Positions 40,240-49,907 of a stretch of DNA of 64,000 nt are shown one piece after another (position 1 is the stretch's first letter; every line of letters begins with the position of its first letter). The translations under genes and the position numbers were made by a program. Under the pieces are notes generated by a model, which was not told where the DNA came from, searched no databases, and saw only the letters and a list, made by a program, of their open reading frames with translations. The stretch lies in NCBI RefSeq assembly GCF_003001815.1, contig NZ_PVMZ01000003.1, forward strand, positions 558,001 to 622,000, given 5' to 3'. Origin of the DNA: Actinoplanes italicus (GTDB taxonomy: Bacteria > Actinomycetota > Actinomycetes > Mycobacteriales > Micromonosporaceae).

Positions 40240-40363
40240 GCAGCCGATCGTAAGCGACACATGACGATGTAATCGTGGCCACAATGTAAATGGGTGCGCA
40301 GTGGGCAAGGATGGACCGGTAAGGTCGGATGTGCCGACGAATGCTTACCAGTCAGGTAGGAAT

Positions 40364-42127
40364 GTGACCAGCAGGACCGGCAATGACGTGCTGGTACGGG
40401 GGCTGCGGGTGCTCGGCCGGGCGATCCGGACGGAGCCACGGCTCTTCACCGTCAGCGCGATCGGCAGCAGCTTCTTCGGATTCCTGATCATTGCGAACTC
40501 GTACGTCGTGGGCGCGATCATCGGCGATGTCGTGGTGCCCGCCTTCGCCGAGCACCGTGTCGGCTCGGGCGGCCTGGCTCTCGCCGTCGCCGCGCTGCTC
40601 GGACTCAGCGTGCTGCGGATCGCCAGCATCTGGGCCCGCCGGCTGGGCGCCGGGTTCATGCAGTTCCGCCTGCAGGCCCGATACCGGCGCGCCGTGACTC
40701 GCCGCTACCTGTCGCTGCCGCCGGAGTGGCACCAGCGGCACGCCACCGGATCCCTGCTCTCCAACGCCGGCTCCGACGTCGAGGCCGCGTTCGCGCCGAT
40801 CGCGCCGCTGCCGTTCGCGGTCGGCACGATCGTGATGATCGCCGGGGCGGTGGTCGCGCTCTTCCTCACCGACTGGGTGCTGGCCCTGGTCGGGGTCGCG
40901 CTGTTCCCGGCCCTGTTCGCGCTGAACTTCTTCTACTCGCGCCGGATGTCACCCCGCCAGATCCACGCCCAGCGGATGCGGGCGAAGGTCGCCGCGGTGG
41001 CGCACGAGAGCTTCGACGGCGCCCTGGTGGTCAAGACGATGGGCCGGGAGGCCGACGAGTCCCGCCGGTTCGGGGTGTTCGTCTCCGAGCTGCGTGACGC
41101 GCTGGTCGCGGTGGGCCGGCTGCGCGGTGTCTTCGACCCGCTCATGGAGAGCCTGCCCAGCGTCGGCACGCTCGCCGTGCTGCTGCTCGGCACCTGGCGG
41201 CTGCAGGCCGGCGCGATCACGGTGACCGAGGTGGTCAGCGTCGCGTTCCTGTTCACCGTGCTGGCGTTCCCGGTGCGGGCGATCGGCTGGGTGGTCGGCG
41301 AGCTGCCGCGCAGCGTCGCCGGCTGGGAGCGGGTCGAGTCGGTGCTGTCCGCGGAGGGCGACCTGGAGTACGGCTCCGGTGAACTGCCCGGCACCGGTCC
41401 CGCCGAACTGCGCTTCGACCGGGTCGGATACCGGTACGCCGACGGCCCGCCCGTGCTCACCGACGTGACCTTCACCGTCCCGGCCGGCAAGACGGTGGCC
41501 CTGGTCGGCGCGACCGGCTCCGGCAAGTCCACGATCGCGGCGCTCGCCATGCGGCTGGTCGACCCGGAGTCCGGCGCGGTCTCCCTGGACGGCATGAAAC
41601 TGCCCGATCTGTCGGCGCCCGAGCTGGCCGGGGCGACCGCACTGGTCCCGCAGATCCCGTTCGTCTTCGACGACACGATCCGCGGCAACGTGGCCCTGGA
41701 CCGGCCCGGCATCGACGACGACCGGGTCTGGGCGGCGCTGCGGCTGGCCCAGGCCGGCGGGTTCGTCGGCGGGCTGCCCGGTCAGCTGGACACCGAGGTC
41801 GGCGAGCGGGGCACGTCGCTGTCCGGCGGGCAGCGGCAGCGGCTCACGCTGGCCCGGGCGCTGGCCGGCCGGCCCCGGCTGCTGGTGCTCGACGACGCGA
41901 CCAGCGCGGTCGACCCGCGGGTGGAGGCCGCCATCCTCGGCGCGCTGCGCGAGTCGGGCACGTCGCTGCTGGTGGTCGCCTACCGGCGGGCCAGCATCGC
42001 GCTCGCCGACGAGGTGGTCTACCTGCATCAGGGCCGGGTGGTGGCCACCGGCACGCACGCCGGGCTGATGGCGACGCAGCCGGGTTACCGGGATCTGGTC
42101 ACGGCGTACGAGAAGGCTGACAAATGA
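40364..42127 (+). CDS. ABC exporter half-transporter, degenerate ATPase site subunit
   Basis: A 587-residue half-transporter: six-helix type I exporter domain (about 20-310), then an ATPase domain. Walker A is GATGSGKST and the signature LSGGQRQR is canonical, but Walker B reads LLVLDDATSAVD: Asp511 replaces the catalytic glutamate, and the H-loop histidine is Tyr540 (VVAYRRAS). That is the pattern of the degenerate subunit of heterodimeric exporters. Start at GTG 40364 (AGGTAGGA upstream) is preferred; GTG at 40331 or 40301 is possible. The stop overlaps the next gene, its likely partner. Confidence 0.9.
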   Translation: MTSRTGNDVLVRGLRVLGRAIRTEPRLFTVSAIGSSFFGFLIIANSYVVGAIIGDVVVPAFAEHRVGSGGLALAVAALLGLSVLRIASIWARRLGAGFMQFRLQARYRRAVTRRYLSLPPEWHQRHATGSLLSNAGSDVEAAFAPIAPLPFAVGTIVMIAGAVVALFLTDWVLALVGVALFPALFALNFFYSRRMSPRQIHAQRMRAKVAAVAHESFDGALVVKTMGREADESRRFGVFVSELRDALVAVGRLRGVFDPLMESLPSVGTLAVLLLGTWRLQAGAITVTEVVSVAFLFTVLAFPVRAIGWVVGELPRSVAGWERVESVLSAEGDLEYGSGELPGTGPAELRFDRVGYRYADGPPVLTDVTFTVPAGKTVALVGATGSGKSTIAALAMRLVDPESGAVSLDGMKLPDLSAPELAGATALVPQIPFVFDDTIRGNVALDRPGIDDDRVWAALRLAQAGGFVGGLPGQLDTEVGERGTSLSGGQRQRLTLARALAGRPRLLVLDDATSAVDPRVEAAILGALRESGTSLLVVAYRRASIALADEVVYLHQGRVVATGTHAGLMATQPGYRDLVTAYEKADK

Positions 42128-43977
42128 ACCTTTTGCAACGTGGCGAGGCCCGGGCCACCCGCCGCCGGACGACGAACCCGAGCCTTCAGGCTCGAAGCCA
42201 GGTTGAAAAAGGTTCATCGAGCGACGTCGGAGCCCTTGCCACCTTCCGGCGCGGGCTGGCCCTGTCGCCCGAGCTGCGTACCGGGCTGGCCGGCACGATC
42301 GCCCTGGCGATCCTGCAGATGTCCGGCCGGGTGGCCGTGCCGATCGCCGTGCAGCAGGGCATCGACCACGGCATCAACGGGCCCGGCGGCCCGGACACCC
42401 GGCTGGTGCTCGGGATCGTGGCGCTGACTCTGATCGCGCTGGCCGTCTCGACGTTCTGCGGGTATCTGATGACCCGGCGGCTCTTCACGGTCACCGAGAC
42501 CGCGCTGGGCGGCATCCGCTCGCGGACCTTCCGGCACATCCACGATTTGTCGATGCTGCACCAGCAGTCCGAGCGGCGCGGCTCCATGGTGTCCCGGGTG
42601 ACCGGTGACGTCGACCAGATCTCGGTGTTCCTGCAGACCGGCGGCGTGCAGCTGCTGCTCGCCTTCGGGCAGCTGGTCGTCTCCACGGTCGTCATGTTCG
42701 TCTACTCGTGGCAGCTCACGATCGTGGTGCTGCTCGCTTTCGGGCCGGCGGTGGGAGTGATCCGGCTGTTCCAGAAGCGACTGGCCGCCGCCTATCGCAC
42801 GGTCCGCGAACGAAGCGGTGTGATGCTCGGCACGGTGGCGGAGAGTGTGGTGGGCGCCACGGTGATCCGTTCGTTCGGGGTCTCCGGGCGCACCGGCCGG
42901 CGCCTGGACCACTCCATCGACGACCTCCGGAAGGCGCAGCAGCGGGCCATGCGCACCAGCGTCGCCAGTTTCTCCAGCGGTGAGCTGAGCGGTGGACTGG
43001 CACTGTCCGGAGTGGTGGTCGCAGGTGTCCTGCTCGGAGCCGGCGGTGACCTCACGGTGGGCCGGCTGACCGCGTTCCTGTTCCTGGTGACGCTCTTCAT
43101 CCAGCCGGTGCAGATCGCCACCGAGCAGCTCAACGAGGCGCAGAACGCGGTCGCCGGGTGGCGGCGCATCCTCGACGTGCTGGACGTCGACCCGGACGTG
43201 GCCGACCCCGACGACGAGGGTGTCGAGCTTCCGGCCGGCCCGCTGTCGGTCCGCTTCGACGACGTGTCGTTCCGCTATCCGGGCGGGCCGATCGTGCTGT
43301 CGCACGTGGACCTGGAGCTCGAGGCCCGCAGGAAGTACGCGGTGGTGGGGGAGACCGGCAGCGGCAAGACGACGTTCGCCAAGCTGCTCACCCGGCTCAT
43401 GGACCCCGCCGAGGGCACGGTGCTGCTGTCCGGGGAGCCGCTCACCGGGGTGCGTTTCTCGTCCCTGCGGTCGCGGGTGGTGATGGTGCCGCAGGACGGG
43501 TTCCTGTTCGACGCGACGATCGCCGAGAACATCCGCTTCGCCGAGCCGTCGCTCACCGACGAGCAGCTGCGAGTGGCCTTCACCGAGCTGGGGCTCGGGG
43601 ACTGGCTCGACGGTCTGCCGGCGGGGCTCGAGACGGCGGTGGGCGAGCGTGGCGAGTCGCTCAGTGTGGGCGAGAGGCAGCTGGTGGCGCTGGTACGCGC
43701 GTACGTCGCCGATCCCGATCTGCTGGTGCTCGACGAGGCGACCAGTGCGGTCGACCCGGCCACCGAGGTGCGGCTGCAGTACGCCCTGGACCTGGTGACC
43801 CGTGGCCGGACCACGGTCGCCATCGCGCACCGGCTCTCCACGGCCCAGTCCGCGGACGAGGTCATCGTGGTGGATGCGGGCCGCGTCGTACAACGCGGCC
43901 CGCATGCCCGCCTCGTCGCCGAGGAGGGTTCGATCTACGCCAAGCTCTACGCCAGCTGGTTGGAACAGACACGCTGA
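42124..43977 (+). CDS. ABC exporter half-transporter, catalytic subunit
   Basis: A 617-residue half-transporter. Six hydrophobic helices, then an ATPase domain with Walker A GETGSGKTT, canonical Walker B LLVLDEATSAVD with the catalytic glutamate, and canonical H-loop IAHRLSTAQ; its signature is altered, LSVGERQ instead of LSGGQ. Combined with the preceding subunit this gives one consensus and one degenerate ATP site. The ATG overlaps the upstream stop (ATGA). Drug or lipid export is the usual role; cargo unknown. Confidence 0.92.
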   Translation: MNLLQRGEARATRRRTTNPSLQARSQVEKGSSSDVGALATFRRGLALSPELRTGLAGTIALAILQMSGRVAVPIAVQQGIDHGINGPGGPDTRLVLGIVALTLIALAVSTFCGYLMTRRLFTVTETALGGIRSRTFRHIHDLSMLHQQSERRGSMVSRVTGDVDQISVFLQTGGVQLLLAFGQLVVSTVVMFVYSWQLTIVVLLAFGPAVGVIRLFQKRLAAAYRTVRERSGVMLGTVAESVVGATVIRSFGVSGRTGRRLDHSIDDLRKAQQRAMRTSVASFSSGELSGGLALSGVVVAGVLLGAGGDLTVGRLTAFLFLVTLFIQPVQIATEQLNEAQNAVAGWRRILDVLDVDPDVADPDDEGVELPAGPLSVRFDDVSFRYPGGPIVLSHVDLELEARRKYAVVGETGSGKTTFAKLLTRLMDPAEGTVLLSGEPLTGVRFSSLRSRVVMVPQDGFLFDATIAENIRFAEPSLTDEQLRVAFTELGLGDWLDGLPAGLETAVGERGESLSVGERQLVALVRAYVADPDLLVLDEATSAVDPATEVRLQYALDLVTRGRTTVAIAHRLSTAQSADEVIVVDAGRVVQRGPHARLVAEEGSIYAKLYASWLEQTR

Positions 43978-44007
43978 CCGGGGGTCCCCGGTGAGATGAG
44001 CGCGTCG

Positions 44008-44041
44008 CTCGCAGCGGCCGCGGTGATGCGACCGCTGCGAG
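44008..44041. terminator. bidirectional hairpin between the ABC exporter and rpsD
   Basis: Perfect 10-bp stem CTCGCAGCGG / CCGCTGCGAG with a 14-base loop in the 101-base convergent gap. Confidence 0.55.
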
Positions 44042-44078
44042 AGGCCCGCCATTTCAGCGATTCAAGAGCCGGAACTGC

Positions 44079-44687
44079 CTATCGGGCGTAGTACTCGACG
44101 ACCATCTGCTCGTCGCACAGCACCGGGATCTCGGACCGCTGCGGGGCCCGGATCACGGTGGTCCGCAGCTCCTCCAGGACGGTGGAGAGGTACGGCGCGG
44201 TCGGGCCGTCGATGTGCGTGCCGGTCGCCGCGATCTGGAACGGCGGCTTCTGCCGGCTGGTCTCCTTGACCTCGATGACCTGGCCGGGCTTCAGCTTGTA
44301 GCCGGGACGGTCCACCTTCTTGCCGTCCACGGTGAAGTGGCCGTGCACCACGAGCTGGCGGGCCTGGTAGATGGTCCGGGTGAAACCGGCGCGGAACACC
44401 GTGGCGTCCAGACGGCGCTCGAGCAGCGTGACCATGGTCTCGCCGGTCTTGCCCTCGGCCTTGTGGGCGGCGTCGTACGCGGCCCGCATCTGGACCTCGC
44501 TGATGTTGTACTGGTGGCGCAGCCGCTGCTTCTCCAGCAGACGGACCTGGTAGTCGGAGGCCTTACGACGGCCACGGCCGTGCACGCCCGGCGGGAACGG
44601 CCGGCGCTCGAAGTACTTGACGCACTTACGCGTCAGAGGGATTCCGAGGGCCCGCGAGAGCTTCGCCTTGGGTCGGGAGTTGTTCAA
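44079..44687 (-). CDS. rpsD: 30S ribosomal protein S4 (probable second copy)
   Basis: S4 (202 residues) binds 16S rRNA in the small subunit. N-terminal NNSRPKAKLSRALGIPLTR...YFERRPFPPGVHGRGRRK, the S4 domain RLDATVFRAGFTRTIYQARQLVVHGHFTVDGKKVDRPG and C-terminal CDEQMVVEYYAR. Only one cysteine occurs near the N-terminus, so it is the zinc-free form. The TTG start at 44687 has AGGAG seven bases before it; a longer frame reaches 44759 but crosses the operator. It stands alone, away from any ribosomal operon, and its promoter region has iron-box-like sites, so I infer a conditionally used paralogue; if the genome has no other rpsD that would be wrong. Confidence 0.9.
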   Translation of the reverse strand: MNNSRPKAKLSRALGIPLTRKCVKYFERRPFPPGVHGRGRRKASDYQVRLLEKQRLRHQYNISEVQMRAAYDAAHKAEGKTGETMVTLLERRLDATVFRAGFTRTIYQARQLVVHGHFTVDGKKVDRPGYKLKPGQVIEVKETSRQKPPFQIAATGTHIDGPTAPYLSTVLEELRTTVIRAPQRSEIPVLCDEQMVVEYYAR

Positions 44688-44701
44688 CTGCGATCTCCTG
44701 T

Positions 44702-44740
44702 TACGGTTAGCCTTGCCTAACTTAGGTAAGCCTAACCGGT
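44702..44740. promoter_or_regulatory. two DtxR/IdeR iron-box-like operators
   Basis: Known iron-box consensus: TWAGGTWAGSCTWACCTWA. Plus-strand 44722-44740 matches at 16 of 19 positions (first 16 bases exact, TTAGGTAAGCCTAACC). Minus-strand 44702-44720 matches at 17 of 19 (TTAGGCAAGGCTAACC core). They sit back to back in the 70-base gap between rpsD and the DUF2470 gene, so one metal-sensing repressor could control both. Confidence 0.75.
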
Positions 44741-44757
44741 GCCCGGAGGTGCTCGTC

Positions 44758-45495
44758 ATGCAACCCAGTCCCGCCGAGATCGCGCGTACTCTCGCCGCCG
44801 GTCACCTGCCCGCCGTCGCCCACATCGCGTGCCGTCCGGGACCGACTCCGGTCCGGCACGTGACCGACGCGCAGGGACGGGTACTGCTGCTCGTGCCACG
44901 CGAGGGTACTCTCGCCGGGGCATTGCGCCCACAGGACGGTAACGACGACACCGCACTCGTTCTGGACATCCGAGACGTGCCGCCCATGGCGACGTCGCCG
45001 TCGCTCGGCCGGATCTGGGTCAGCGGCTGGGCCGCGAAACTCGAGGGCGACGACGCCAGGGCCGCCGCGCTGGACTACGCCGACACCGACGCCTGCGGCG
45101 ATCTGCTCGACATCGGTGAGAGTCAGTCGCTCTACCGGATGGAGGTCGCCGAGGTCCGCTACGAGCGCAACGAGAAGCTCGTGGAGATCGACCCGGACGA
45201 CTACGCCGAGGCCACCCCGGACCCGCTGCGTGCCGTCGAGTTCGATCTGATCGCCGACCTGGCCGACCACCACATGAGCGAGATGAGCGACTACGTGCGC
45301 CGCCAGCTCGGCAAAGAGGCGCGGCCGGGAGACGAGCCCAAGGTCGTACGGATGGACCGTTACGGATTCGTCGTGCGGATGGGCGGGCGCAGTGCCCGCC
45401 TGGCCTTCCCCCGTCCGGTGACCGACCGCCACGACCTGGCGCACCTGCTCCACCCGATCCTCTGCCGCCGCTGCTGCAACAGCAGCGCCGCCTGA
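44758..45495 (+). CDS. DUF2470-domain protein (HugZ-like, heme-related)
   Basis: A 245-residue protein with an N-terminal half resembling a flavin/heme split barrel (AHIACRPGPTPVRHVTDAQGRVLLLV) and a C-terminal DUF2470-type domain (FDLIADLADHHMSEMSDYVRR ... VRMDRYGFVVRMGGRSARLAFPRPVTD), as in HugZ-type heme-utilisation proteins. The C-terminus has the cysteine cluster CRRCC. Iron or heme metabolism is supported by the iron boxes just upstream. ATG at 44758 has GGAGG eight bases ahead. Confidence 0.8.
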   Translation: MQPSPAEIARTLAAGHLPAVAHIACRPGPTPVRHVTDAQGRVLLLVPREGTLAGALRPQDGNDDTALVLDIRDVPPMATSPSLGRIWVSGWAAKLEGDDARAAALDYADTDACGDLLDIGESQSLYRMEVAEVRYERNEKLVEIDPDDYAEATPDPLRAVEFDLIADLADHHMSEMSDYVRRQLGKEARPGDEPKVVRMDRYGFVVRMGGRSARLAFPRPVTDRHDLAHLLHPILCRRCCNSSAA

Positions 45496-45512
45496 GGTCA
45501 CACCGACGAGGC

Positions 45513-45559
45513 GGGCCCCCACGGCCGACCTTCTGCCGCCGTCATGGCCGTGGGAGCCC
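45513..45559. terminator. hairpin 1 in the DUF2470 convergent gap
   Basis: Arms 45513-45526 and 45546-45559 pair at 13 of 14 positions (core CCCACGGCC / GGCCGTGGG), 19-base loop. Confidence 0.5.
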
Positions 45560-45565
45560 GTCTTC

Positions 45566-45601
45566 GAGCCCTGCCACCCGGTGCCGCGGGTGGCAGGGCT
45601 C
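45566..45601 (+). terminator. hairpin 2: terminator after the DUF2470 gene
   Basis: Perfect 15-bp stem (45566-45580 with 45587-45601), six-base loop, followed by ACAACTTTTG. It can also stop the convergent transcript from the minus strand. Confidence 0.75.
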
Positions 45602-45630
45602 ACAACTTTTGTGGCGCTCCAGGAGCGTTC

Positions 45631-47319
45631 CTAGAGGGAGAGGATCCGCTCCAGGAACTCCCGGTACCCGCGCATCGCCATCCGCATGCTCTCGGTGTCC
45701 GGGGTGTCGGTGCCGCGCAGCGGGTCCAGCTCGTCCCGCTCGGCCAGCAGCACCTCGGTCAGTTCGTTGACCGCGTCGGTGAGCAGGTCGTGAGCCCGGG
45801 TCAGGGCGGTGACCGGGTCGTCGACGAACTCCGCCTTGACCTCGTGCCAGGCCGCACGGAAATGCCGGGCCGCGTCCTCGTCCCAGACGGTGCGGCCGAT
45901 CACCGGCTCGTCGGCGTTGTCGGCCGGGCCCGTCTCCTCGGCGGCCGCGGCGCGGCGACCGGTCCGGCGGATGGGCTCCGCGTCCTCCAGGCTGGCCGAG
46001 CGGCGTGCCGCCGGAGCGGCCGTCTCCTCGGCGATCTCCTCACGGGCGCGCCGGGCGGGCGGCGCCGGCGGGAAGGTGAGGAACTCCGAGGGCGGCGTGA
46101 CCGAACCGGCCGGCGGAGCCGCCGGAGTGACGGACGCCACACCGAACGCCTCGGTCGGGCGGCCCAGGCTGTAACCGGCCGGCGCGAAGCCGTAGCCACC
46201 CTCCGCAGCCGCCGGCAGACCGGCGTAACCGCCGCCCTCGCCCGGCTCGCCGAGGTCGATGGTCAGATCCGGCGGGGTCCGGGTCGCCGGGATCTGCACC
46301 GAGGCGGACGCGGAGACCGGAGCGCTCGGGCCCTGAGCGGGGGAGACCGGCGCGGGAGTCGCCGGGTCGGCCGGCTCGGGCGCCTGGCCCGGCATGCCGG
46401 ACACCGGCTGCAGGTTGCCGGCCGGGTGGTCGGGGGTGAAATCCGCGACCGAGTACGGATTCGGCGGGTACGCCGGTGACACCGGAGCACCGGAGACCGG
46501 ACCCGCCGACACCGGTGGAACCGGCTGCGTGAGGCCGGGCACGGACGCCCAGCCGGCGGCCGCGCGCGGCGGGTCGGCCGGAACCTGCCCCGGCGACTCC
46601 TCGACCGGCTCGCCCGTCCCGTCCGGGTGGGCCTCGCCGGTCTGCGCGTAACCGGGCGCGCCTGCCCGTCCGTTCATGTCCTCACGTCCGTTCTCGTCGC
46701 TGGGTCCCGCCACCTCGGCGGCCTCCTGGCCGGCGTCCGGCGGAGTCTGGTCCGCGGGCTCGTCCGCCGGTGTGGCACCGGCCGTCTCCTCGTCGGTCGG
46801 CTCGTCACCGACCTGAGACTCACCGGCCGGGGAAGCGCCGTCCTCGGACTCCGCGTCCTCGGAATCGTCGCCGTCCCGTCCGCCGAAGAGGAACCTCCCG
46901 GTACGTCCTCCGAGGCCGAAGCCACCGTAGGCGTCCTCGGACTTTACGTCCTGAGCGGGTTCCGTCCCGTCGTCCGGAGGTACGGAGTGATCAGTATCGC
47001 CGTGCCGTTCCGCCTCGGGTGGGCCGGACACCGGACGCTCGGCGGCGGGCTGGCTGCGCGGGCCGCCACGGGTCGCCGCCCGGTTCAGTCCGAACGGGTC
47101 GGCCGCGCCGCCCGGATGGCGTGCCGCCGAGGCGATCGGCGCCAGTGGCGGGATCGGCCGGCTGCGGAAAGTACCCAGTGGGGAGCCGTTGAGCAGGTCG
47201 GCCGGAGTCGCCGGCGGCTCCTCACCGGTGCTCGTGACCTCGGGCTCCGGGCGCACCTGCCAGAAGCGGGCGAGGCCGTGCGAGGGCCGGGTGTTGTCGG
47301 GGCTGGACGTCGGCTCCAT
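45631..47319 (-). CDS. large disordered protein with conserved C-terminal helical domain
   Basis: The 562-residue protein is Pro/Ala/Glu/Gly-rich and probably disordered for about 470 residues. The last 85 residues form a compact, mostly helical domain: [42 protein letters not shown], then [19 protein letters not shown] recall this helical domain at the C-terminus of other actinobacterial proteins of unknown function. No signal peptide or membrane helix. ATG at 47319 is preferred (MEPTSSPDN). Divergent from hisI. Confidence 0.65.
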
Positions 47320-47527: not shown

Positions 47528-47893
47528 GTGGCCGTACCCGATGTAGAGACCTCCCTGGACCCGGCGATCGCCGCCCGCCTCAAGCGCACGCCCGACGGCC
47601 TCGTCGCGGCGATCGTGCAGGAGCACGGCAGCGGCGACGTCCTGATGCTCGCCTGGATGGACGACGAGGCGCTGCGGCGCACGCTGACCACCGGCCGGGC
47701 CACCTACTGGTCCCGCAGCCGCGGGGAGTACTGGGTGAAGGGCGCCACCTCCGGCCACCACCAGCACGTCAAGCGGGTCTCATTGGACTGTGACGGCGAC
47801 GCGCTGCTGGTCACCGTCGTGCAGACCGGCGCGGCCTGCCACACCGGCACCCACACGTGCTTCACCGACGACCTGCCCGTGGAGGAGAAGTGA
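47528..47893 (+). CDS. hisI: phosphoribosyl-AMP cyclohydrolase
   Basis: HisI (121 residues) opens the purine ring of PR-AMP in histidine synthesis. Signatures: [42 protein letters not shown] and the zinc-site CHTGTHTCF. It is separate from the main his cluster, 16 kb away, and directly coupled to trpE by a GTGA overlap, a his-trp linkage seen in many actinomycetes. GTG start at 47528 after GGGGGAG. Confidence 0.95.
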
Positions 47894-49392
47894 CCAGCGG
47901 AGCCACCTTCCCCGACGAGGCCGGGTTCCTCGCGGCCGACAAGCGGGTCGTCCCGGTCACCCGCAAGCTGCTGGCCGACGGCGAGACCCCGGTCGGTGTC
48001 TACACCAAACTGGCCGGTGGGCCGGGCACCTTCCTGCTCGAGTCCGCCGAGCAGGGTCTGGCCTGGTCGCGCTACTCCTTCATCGGTGTCCGGAGCGCCG
48101 CGACGCTGGTCGAGCGGGACGGCGAGGCGGCGTGGCTGGGCACGCCGCCGTCGGGTGTGCCGCTCGGCGGCGACCCGGTGACGGCGCTGCGCGAGACGGT
48201 CGAGGCCCTGACCGGGACGCTCGACGAGACCCTGCCGCCACTGACCGGCGGCATGGTCGGCTACCTCGGCTACGACCTGGTCCGGCGCTTCGAGAAACTG
48301 CCCTCCACCGCCGCCGACGACCTGCACCTGCCCGAGCTGGGCATGATGCTCGCCACCGACCTGGTGGTGCTCGACCACCACGAGGGCTCGGCACTGCTGG
48401 TCGCCAACGCCGTGATGGACGAGAACGCCGACGACGCGGCCCGCCGTGCCGCGTACCACCAGGCGGTCGGCCGGCTCGACGCGATGACCACCGCGCTGTC
48501 GCGGCCCACCCCGCCGATGGTCTCCACGGTGGACCGCCGGCCCGCCGACGAGCCGATCAGCCGAACCCTTCCGGGTGAATATCAGAAGGCGGTCGAGGAG
48601 GCCAAGGAGGCCATCCGGGCCGGCGAGTGCTTCCAGATCGTGGTGGCGCAGCGGTTCGAACGGCCCACCGACGCGAACCCGCTCGACGTCTACCGGGTGC
48701 TGCGGGCCACCAACCCGAGCCCGTACATGTACCTGCTGCGCTTCGACGACTTCGACATCGTCGGCTCGTCGCCGGAGGCACACCTCAAGGTGAGCGCCAA
48801 CCGGACCGCGCTGCTGCACCCGATCGCCGGCACCCGCTGGCGCGGCGCCACCCCCGAGCAGGACGCGGCGCTCGCGGCCGAGCTGCTGGCCGACCCGAAG
48901 GAGCGCTCCGAGCACGTCATGCTCGTCGACCTGGGCCGTAACGACCTGGGCCGGGTCTGCGAGCCGGGCTCGGTGGAGGTGCCGGAATTCGCCCGGATCG
49001 AGCGGTACAGCCACGTCATGCACATCGTGTCCACGGTGGTCGGCCGGCTGCGTGACGACCGGACCGCCTTCGACGCGCTGGCCGCGACGTTCCCGGCCGG
49101 CACCCTCTCCGGCGCGCCCAAGGTCCGGGCCATGGAGATCATCGAGAGCCTGGAGCCGACCCGGCGTGGCCTCTACGGCGGCACGGTGGGCTACTTCGGC
49201 TTCGCCGGCGACATGGACATGGCGATCGCCATCCGGACGGCCCTCCTCAAGGACGGCGTCGCGTACGTCGGCGCGGGTGCCGGCATCGTGGCCGACTCCG
49301 ATCCGGCCGCCGAGGAGCAGGAGACCCGGAACAAGGCCGCCGCCGTCCTCGCCGCGATAGCCTCCGCGGAAACCCTGCGCGCCGCCCGATGA
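47890..49392 (+). CDS. trpE: anthranilate synthase component I
   Basis: TrpE (500 residues) makes anthranilate from chorismate and glutamine-derived ammonia. The N-terminal LLES (in [10 protein letters not shown]) is part of the tryptophan feedback site; the catalytic half includes [38 protein letters not shown] and [15 protein letters not shown]. The glutaminase component trpG is not beside it. GTG start follows GGAGGAG and overlaps hisI. Confidence 0.96.
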
Positions 49393-49907
49393 GACGTGAC
49401 CACCTGACCGCCGTCGCGTCGTGCCTGGCCGGCGCGGGACTGGCCCTGTTCGCGGCGACCCGGGTCTGGGCGGTCCGGGTGGAGCAGCGGCCCGGACTGA
49501 CCGATCTGCGCACCGAGCAGACCGGGGCGGACGTTCAACCGTGGCTGATCGGCCTGGCCGTGGTCGCGCTGGCCGGGACGGGAGCGCTGCTGGCCACCCG
49601 CGGCGTGGCCCGCCGGGTGCTGGGGGTGCTGCTGGCGCTGACCGGCGCGGGTGTCGCGGCCGGTGCGGTGCTCGCCCGGGCCGGCGTCGACCCGGGGGCG
49701 GCGGGCCCCGCGGGCTCGGCGTGGCCGGTGGCGTGCGTCCTGGGCGGCGCGGCGGTGGCGGTGGGCGGCGTGCTCGCCGCGCGTCACGGTCACCTCTGGT
49801 CGGCGATGTCCTCGCGGTACGAACGTCGCCCGGCCCCGGCGTCGCTGGACGAGGGCCGCGAACTATGGGACGCCCTGGACCGTGGGGACGACCCGACAGC
49901 CCGCTGA
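49389..49907 (+). CDS. Trp-biosynthesis-associated membrane protein (TIGR02234 type)
   Basis: A 172-residue protein with four hydrophobic helices, starting LTAVASCLAGAGLALFAATRVWAV and ending with a cytoplasmic tail RYERRPAPASLDEGRELWDALDRGDDPT. The tail pattern and position after trpE fit the actinobacterial membrane family associated with trp operons. Function unknown. ATG overlaps the trpE stop. Confidence 0.85.
   Translation: MRRDHLTAVASCLAGAGLALFAATRVWAVRVEQRPGLTDLRTEQTGADVQPWLIGLAVVALAGTGALLATRGVARRVLGVLLALTGAGVAAGAVLARAGVDPGAAGPAGSAWPVACVLGGAAVAVGGVLAARHGHLWSAMSSRYERRPAPASLDEGRELWDALDRGDDPTAR

Follow-up and report, generated by a model that had tools for sequence, protein, structure and literature searches.

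Why should a gene for a ribosomal protein lie behind binding sites for an iron repressor? The question is raised by a locus in a 64,000-nt stretch of the Actinoplanes italicus genome (the window; contig NZ_PVMZ01000003.1, positions 558,001 to 622,000), where genes for ribosomal protein S4 and for a HugZ-like heme protein diverge, and the 70 nt between their start codons enclose two 19-bp DtxR/IdeR-type boxes separated by a single base (Table 1).

Table 1 Features of the divergent S4 locus, in window positions
Feature	Position	Strand	Remarks
Cysteine-free (C−) ribosomal protein S4 gene	44079..44687	−	202 aa, TTG start
AGGAG, probable ribosome-binding site of the S4 gene	44695..44699	−	From sequence; 7 nt from TTG
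DtxR/IdeR-type box 2, S4-proximal	44702..44720	.	15/19 to consensus
DtxR/IdeR-type box 1, HugZ-proximal	44722..44740	.	15/19 to consensus; register kept in close relatives
GGAGG, probable ribosome-binding site of the HugZ-like gene	44745..44749	+	From sequence
HugZ-like heme-protein gene, C-terminal DUF2470, divergent partner of S4	44758..45495	+	ATG start

Scanned from codon 2 on, the window S4 gives a full-length match above the curated cut-off for bacterial uS4 (RpsD), with 221.3 bits to NCBIfam NF003717 (cut-off 116) and 202.4 bits to TIGR01017 (cut-off 177.2), and both the Pfam Ribosomal_S4 and S4 domains are matched. Genes of Actinoplanes aureus, A. xinjiangensis and others share 98% identity with it. 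As the original prediction had it, this is a solitary, zinc-free S4 gene: aligned with the four-cysteine S4 of the same genome, the protein has none of the four zinc/Fe–S cysteines, and one other cysteine. It also lacks part of the loop between the cluster cysteine positions. Loss of the cluster cysteines and a shortened loop are the features of the C−(IV) class of S4 as defined in PMC3087516. The start codon is most likely the TTG at 44687; an ATG, GTG or TTG occurs at exactly this position in 13 of the 15 relatives compared. With this start, both boxes lie outside the S4 coding sequence. An ATG at 44759 would give a 226-aa open reading frame that crosses both boxes, and is an unlikely start. 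Elsewhere in the window, two adjoining MsbA-like ABC exporter genes, probably encoding a heterodimer, occupy 40301–43977, and hisI (phosphoribosyl-AMP cyclohydrolase), trpE and a gene for a Trp-operon membrane protein adjoin at 47558–49907 as a mixed histidine–tryptophan cluster.

The divergent partner is, as predicted, a HugZ/DUF2470-like gene. Its product matches Pfam DUF2470 at the C-terminal end (33.5 bits; cut-off 22), and its AlphaFold model (pLDDT 94.1) is closest among PDB folds to two heme-binding split-barrel proteins, At3g03890 (with heme) and MSMEG_6519 of M. smegmatis (E 7e-14 to 4e-13). A split barrel combined with DUF2470 marks it as a HugZ-like heme protein. HugZ is the name that we presume to apply, and none of the best 50 PDB matches listed for the model is named HugZ or HutZ. 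On the basis of the modelled fold, we predict a role in the recovery of iron from heme. In family f19, the HugZ-like protein encoded by the divergent gene at seven loci (L261–L267) has diverged strongly and looks shortened (profile E 8e-12 to 2e-23).

Two near-consensus boxes had been predicted, with scores of 16 and 17 of 19; both are present, but each matches TTAGGTTAGGCTAACCTAA, which we take to be the DtxR/IdeR consensus, at only 15 of the 19 positions. The boxes nevertheless exceed chance expectation: at a cut-off of 14/19, none of 3,960 dinucleotide-block shuffles and none of 195 control blocks passed. A scan of the 11.15-Mb genome for TTAGGTWAGGCTAACCTAA with up to three mismatches returned 13 strand matches at 10 places, one of them the S4-proximal box, and the reversed motif, used as a control, returned none. 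The HugZ-proximal box has four mismatches to TTAGGTWAGGCTAACCTAA and so falls outside these 10 places. Five of the other nine adjoin genes for siderophore-interacting proteins (two) or periplasmic-binding proteins of the iron–siderophore type (three); the remaining four lie near genes for a PLP decarboxylase, an acetyltransferase, an M48 peptidase and a TIG-domain protein. The PLP-dependent decarboxylase gene preceded by an iron box (L219, G000:C6:181213) is a possible siderophore-synthesis gene. Only one protein in the genome has a DtxR metal-binding domain, and it matches the NCBIfam model 'iron-dependent transcriptional repressor DtxR' with 321 bits (cut-off 290). The locus therefore has both marks of a DtxR/IdeR regulon, the upstream box and a DtxR of the iron type encoded in the same genome. 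A sigma-70-type scan of 43900–45700 found no promoters and no terminators, a negative result of little weight in an actinobacterium.

The genome search suggested in the original prediction did find a second rpsD, so the single-copy case that was to refute the prediction does not apply; a Pfam S4 family search gives two S4 genes in all. The second copy lies in the alpha operon (infA-rpsM-rpsK-rpsD-rpoA) and encodes a protein 39% identical to the window S4, with cysteines at 9, 12, 26 and 31 (CX2CX13CX4C). This motif is present at 75 of the 77 four-cysteine-type loci examined, some of which share a genome. The two genes have the layout of a metal-switched C−/C+ pair, in that the C+ copy, with its cysteine motif, is in the main operon beside rpsK and rpoA, and the C− copy follows a metal-repressor site, here two DtxR-type boxes. 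In two further genomes (L395 and L396 in G112 and G091), the four-cysteine S4 frame is interrupted after the cysteine region; as the completeness of these assemblies is 95 and 89, sequencing error is possible.

What the four cysteines hold bears directly on which metal should control the alternative copy. In Thermus, the four-cysteine site of uS4, earlier called a zinc finger, was confirmed by long-wavelength diffraction to carry a [4Fe–4S] cluster (PMC6555806), and the Fe4S4 assignment is restated in PMC10450194. The three best PDB matches to the four-cysteine S4, which were the ones aligned, all lack the cysteines. By analogy with Thermus, we predict that the alpha-operon S4 of A. italicus carries a [4Fe–4S] cluster. 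Because the Thermus site holds Fe4S4, iron control of a cysteine-free S4 makes sense, whereas zinc control would not, a link that the original prediction did not draw.

Two sites with a DtxR motif, together with another S4 that has four cluster-type cysteines, make the window S4 a likely iron-sparing replacement. We hypothesize, with a probability of roughly 0.7, a DtxR-controlled switch by which iron-starved cells exchange an Fe–S S4 for a cluster-free one. When iron is present, iron-loaded DtxR would occupy the paired boxes and silence both divergent genes, and ribosomes would be built with the alpha-operon S4 carrying its cluster, as extrapolated from Thermus. When iron is low, DtxR would release the boxes, the HugZ-like protein would help to recover iron from heme, as its fold suggests, and new 30S subunits would take up the cluster-free S4. 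Four iron atoms would be saved per ribosome, and assembly could continue when clusters cannot be made.

Comparative genomics bears on this proposal. The survey comprised 198 genomes with an S4 of the window-type clade (112 from f1, the family of the window, and 86 from outside it), drawn from two samples, one of 150 genomes at family level and one of 296 at class level; some species overlap with the named genomes described below. A box was scored when at least 14 of 19 positions matched within 250 nt upstream of S4. Four-cysteine copies were sought with a separate query of their own, and genomes were classed as dual (both S4 types) or single (cysteine-free S4 only). Excluded from the counts were class-survey matches weaker than E 4.6e-57 (among the matches listed), family genomes with a weak second S4 match (for example, G002, G012 and G141), class genomes with two weak matches (for example, G409, G200 and G218) and G391 (copy-tested). 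The dual class includes G112 and G091 despite their interrupted four-cysteine reading frames.

A box precedes the cysteine-free S4 in 115 of 120 dual genomes versus 15 of 78 single-S4 genomes. Within f1 the counts are 90/95 and 0/17 (p 5e-16, a value that, like those that follow, overstates independence because the genomes are related and were counted without a tree). Outside f1, all 25 dual genomes (families f4, f18, f19, f20, f30 and f41) are boxed versus 15 of 61 single-S4 genomes; the difference recurs among the related genomes of f20 (4/4 versus 7/23; p 0.019) and of f18 (8/8 versus 5/15; p 0.0027). By genus, every sampled dual genome is boxed in 42 of 45 genera and none is in one, and 14 of 21 genera with single-S4 genomes have no box at all. 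A box paired with a cysteine-free S4 occurs in seven families of actinobacteria, and its occurrence goes with that of the four-cysteine S4, which strengthens the original proposal that this S4 gene is under iron-box control. Five dual genomes fall below the box threshold (G022, G053, G089, G074 and G127, the last scoring 13); in dual genome G061, the box lies 157 nt from S4, beside HugZ. At four dual loci (L157, L168, L182 and L175; three in genus g23 and one in g24), the cysteine-free S4 has neither a box nor a HugZ-like neighbour.

The box is not a mark of dual genomes only, an idea that we rejected given the 15 single-S4 genomes that retain it. These belong to f20 (seven), f14 (three) and f18 (five), and their boxes lie 41–61 nt before the only S4; judged by upstream sequence, the seven f20 genomes appear to be Streptomyces-like. 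Among the named actinobacterial loci (L003–L057), a box scoring 14/19 or better lies no more than about 110 nt from the S4 start at 54 of 55, the exception being that of Pilimelia. Copy number in 21 of the genomes carrying named loci was two in 16 and one in Pilimelia terevasa and four Streptomyces, all four of which retain the box at −41. At 25 non-actinobacterial loci (L058–L082), no Fur box before S4 stood above shuffles (lowest fraction 0.075), and most of these S4 genes look to be of the alpha-operon type by their immediately upstream sequence. A search for dual S4 in 43 genomes of a Bacillota class matched 39 and gave three second matches, all split or marginal.

The harder issue is whose box it is. 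Because a HugZ-like divergent neighbour, detected by iterated profile, accompanies 127 of the 130 boxed loci, the two potential targets are inseparable nearly everywhere, and because all 15 boxed single-S4 genomes have such a neighbour, HugZ appears to be a target in its own right. The boxes could therefore serve the heme gene only, with the cysteine-free S4 gene only adjacent and transcribed from an unregulated promoter of its own. This would suit the expected place of heme-iron recovery in an iron regulon and the resemblance of the modelled fold to heme-binding proteins, and the single-S4 genomes fit it well: 15 of the 16 with a HugZ-like neighbour are boxed within 250 nt of S4 (in the 16th, Pilimelia, the box is farther away), as against 0 of the 62 without one. 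An only S4 cannot be silenced by iron, and therefore the box in these genomes must serve HugZ alone or repress weakly; S4 there would have to evade repression by means of a second promoter, weak binding or a box that acts on HugZ only. Several observations nevertheless speak for S4 as an additional target. Two dual genomes, G014 and G017, have a box directly before S4 and no HugZ-like gene in the 1,700 nt upstream, where an open frame instead runs towards S4. In G014 (L150), the boxed S4 is just upstream of infA-rpsM-rpsK, and the four-cysteine gene lies about 3 kb away or less on that contig; six single-S4 genomes examined (genera g12 and g14) have S4 at a similar place without a box. Among all loci lacking a HugZ-like neighbour, a box is found in three of seven dual versus none of 62 single-S4 genomes (p 0.0007, from related genomes; p 0.0066 without G171, which the profile scored as HugZ-free but which has a short neighbour resembling a fragment of HugZ). 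In Pilimelia, which has no four-cysteine S4, a 16/19 box lies at −461 beside the HugZ-like gene and the S4 start is about 440 nt from it; here the only S4 seems, from the layout, to have moved away from the box. An independent S4 promoter would also be hard to fit into the 70-nt gap unless it overlapped the boxes or lay within the HugZ gene. We therefore consider it unlikely that HugZ is the sole target, although the box may also serve this gene, and in many loci chiefly so. In f18, ten single-S4 genomes without HugZ (L276–L278, L291, L386, L387 and L389–L392) score 11–13/19 at about the same place, and these sites look like decayed boxes.

Two other explanations assign the S4 gene a different purpose. 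A zinc-sparing paralogue of the Zur type, with zinc on the four-cysteine S4 and a box that is incidental or answers to another metal, would agree with the classification of that S4 as zinc-binding and with the Zur regulation of other actinobacterial C− paralogues, both given in PMC3087516. The same paper reports, for the S4 paralogues it covers, including those of Salinispora, a search for Zur sites that found none; our own scan of the window locus and of dual genomes G022, G053, G089 and G074 reached at best 8/15 to a presumed Zur consensus, so that no upstream Zur box marks the gene, and the only DtxR-family protein in the genome is of the iron type. Zinc sparing is accordingly a very improbable reading. 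S4 is also a fidelity protein of the ribosome, and iron stress might call for ribosomes that decode or assemble differently, with loss of the cluster as a side effect. An identity of only 39% between the two S4 proteins is compatible with such a change, as is the lower H2O2 sensitivity of an error-prone E. coli S4 mutant (PMC8141631), but a change in fidelity cannot be read from sequence, and because the box goes with the four-cysteine form, substitution is indicated instead; we give the altered ribosome scant credence.

An iron-sparing ribosome switch, whose control is shared with a heme-iron gene, is the best explanation of the conserved pair, the chief doubts being the 15 boxed single-S4 genomes and the HugZ-like gene as a shared target. 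By extension, though with somewhat less assurance than for the switch itself, we think it probable that ribosomes form a regulated store of iron, in which a DtxR-controlled, cluster-free S4 replaces the Fe4S4 form in at least seven actinobacterial families and spares four iron atoms per ribosome; the conserved iron control would then be genomic evidence that the uS4 cluster is physiological and not a purification artefact. If so, the cluster matters in living cells, and ribosomes would, from general knowledge, be a major iron pool: a cell holds 10^4–10^5 ribosomes, each with four irons in this reckoning. The switch would also explain the regulation of the S4 paralogues, which Chen et al. left open in 2009 (PMC3087516). 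Zinc-saving swaps of ribosomal paralogues are known; among the matches listed in the open-licence PMC literature, we found no report of an iron-controlled or iron-sparing cluster-free S4.

The proposed switch resembles the C−/C+ switching controlled by Zur, described for S14, S18, L28, L31, L32 and L33 (PMC3087516), in that a metal-binding copy is normally used and a cysteine-free copy stands elsewhere behind a metal-repressor site, but here the site is of the DtxR/IdeR (iron) type, the protein is S4 and the predicted cofactor is [4Fe–4S] rather than zinc. The S4 pairs of Salinispora and Frankia were described by Chen et al., who reported no Zur site by S4; in contrast to our reading, the cysteine site was taken there to bind zinc, and the word 'iron' does not occur in the main text (PMC3087516). 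A 2004 prediction of the Corynebacterium diphtheriae DtxR regulon does include an operon with rpsD (Table 3 of PMC524172), although this rpsD belongs to a long operon running from secY through the alpha operon rather than being a cluster-free paralogue in its own right. HugZ/HutZ-type heme proteins, to use the names presumed here, share with the window protein the split barrel, DUF2470 and heme-binder folds; unlike them, the window gene stands head-to-head with a gene for S4.
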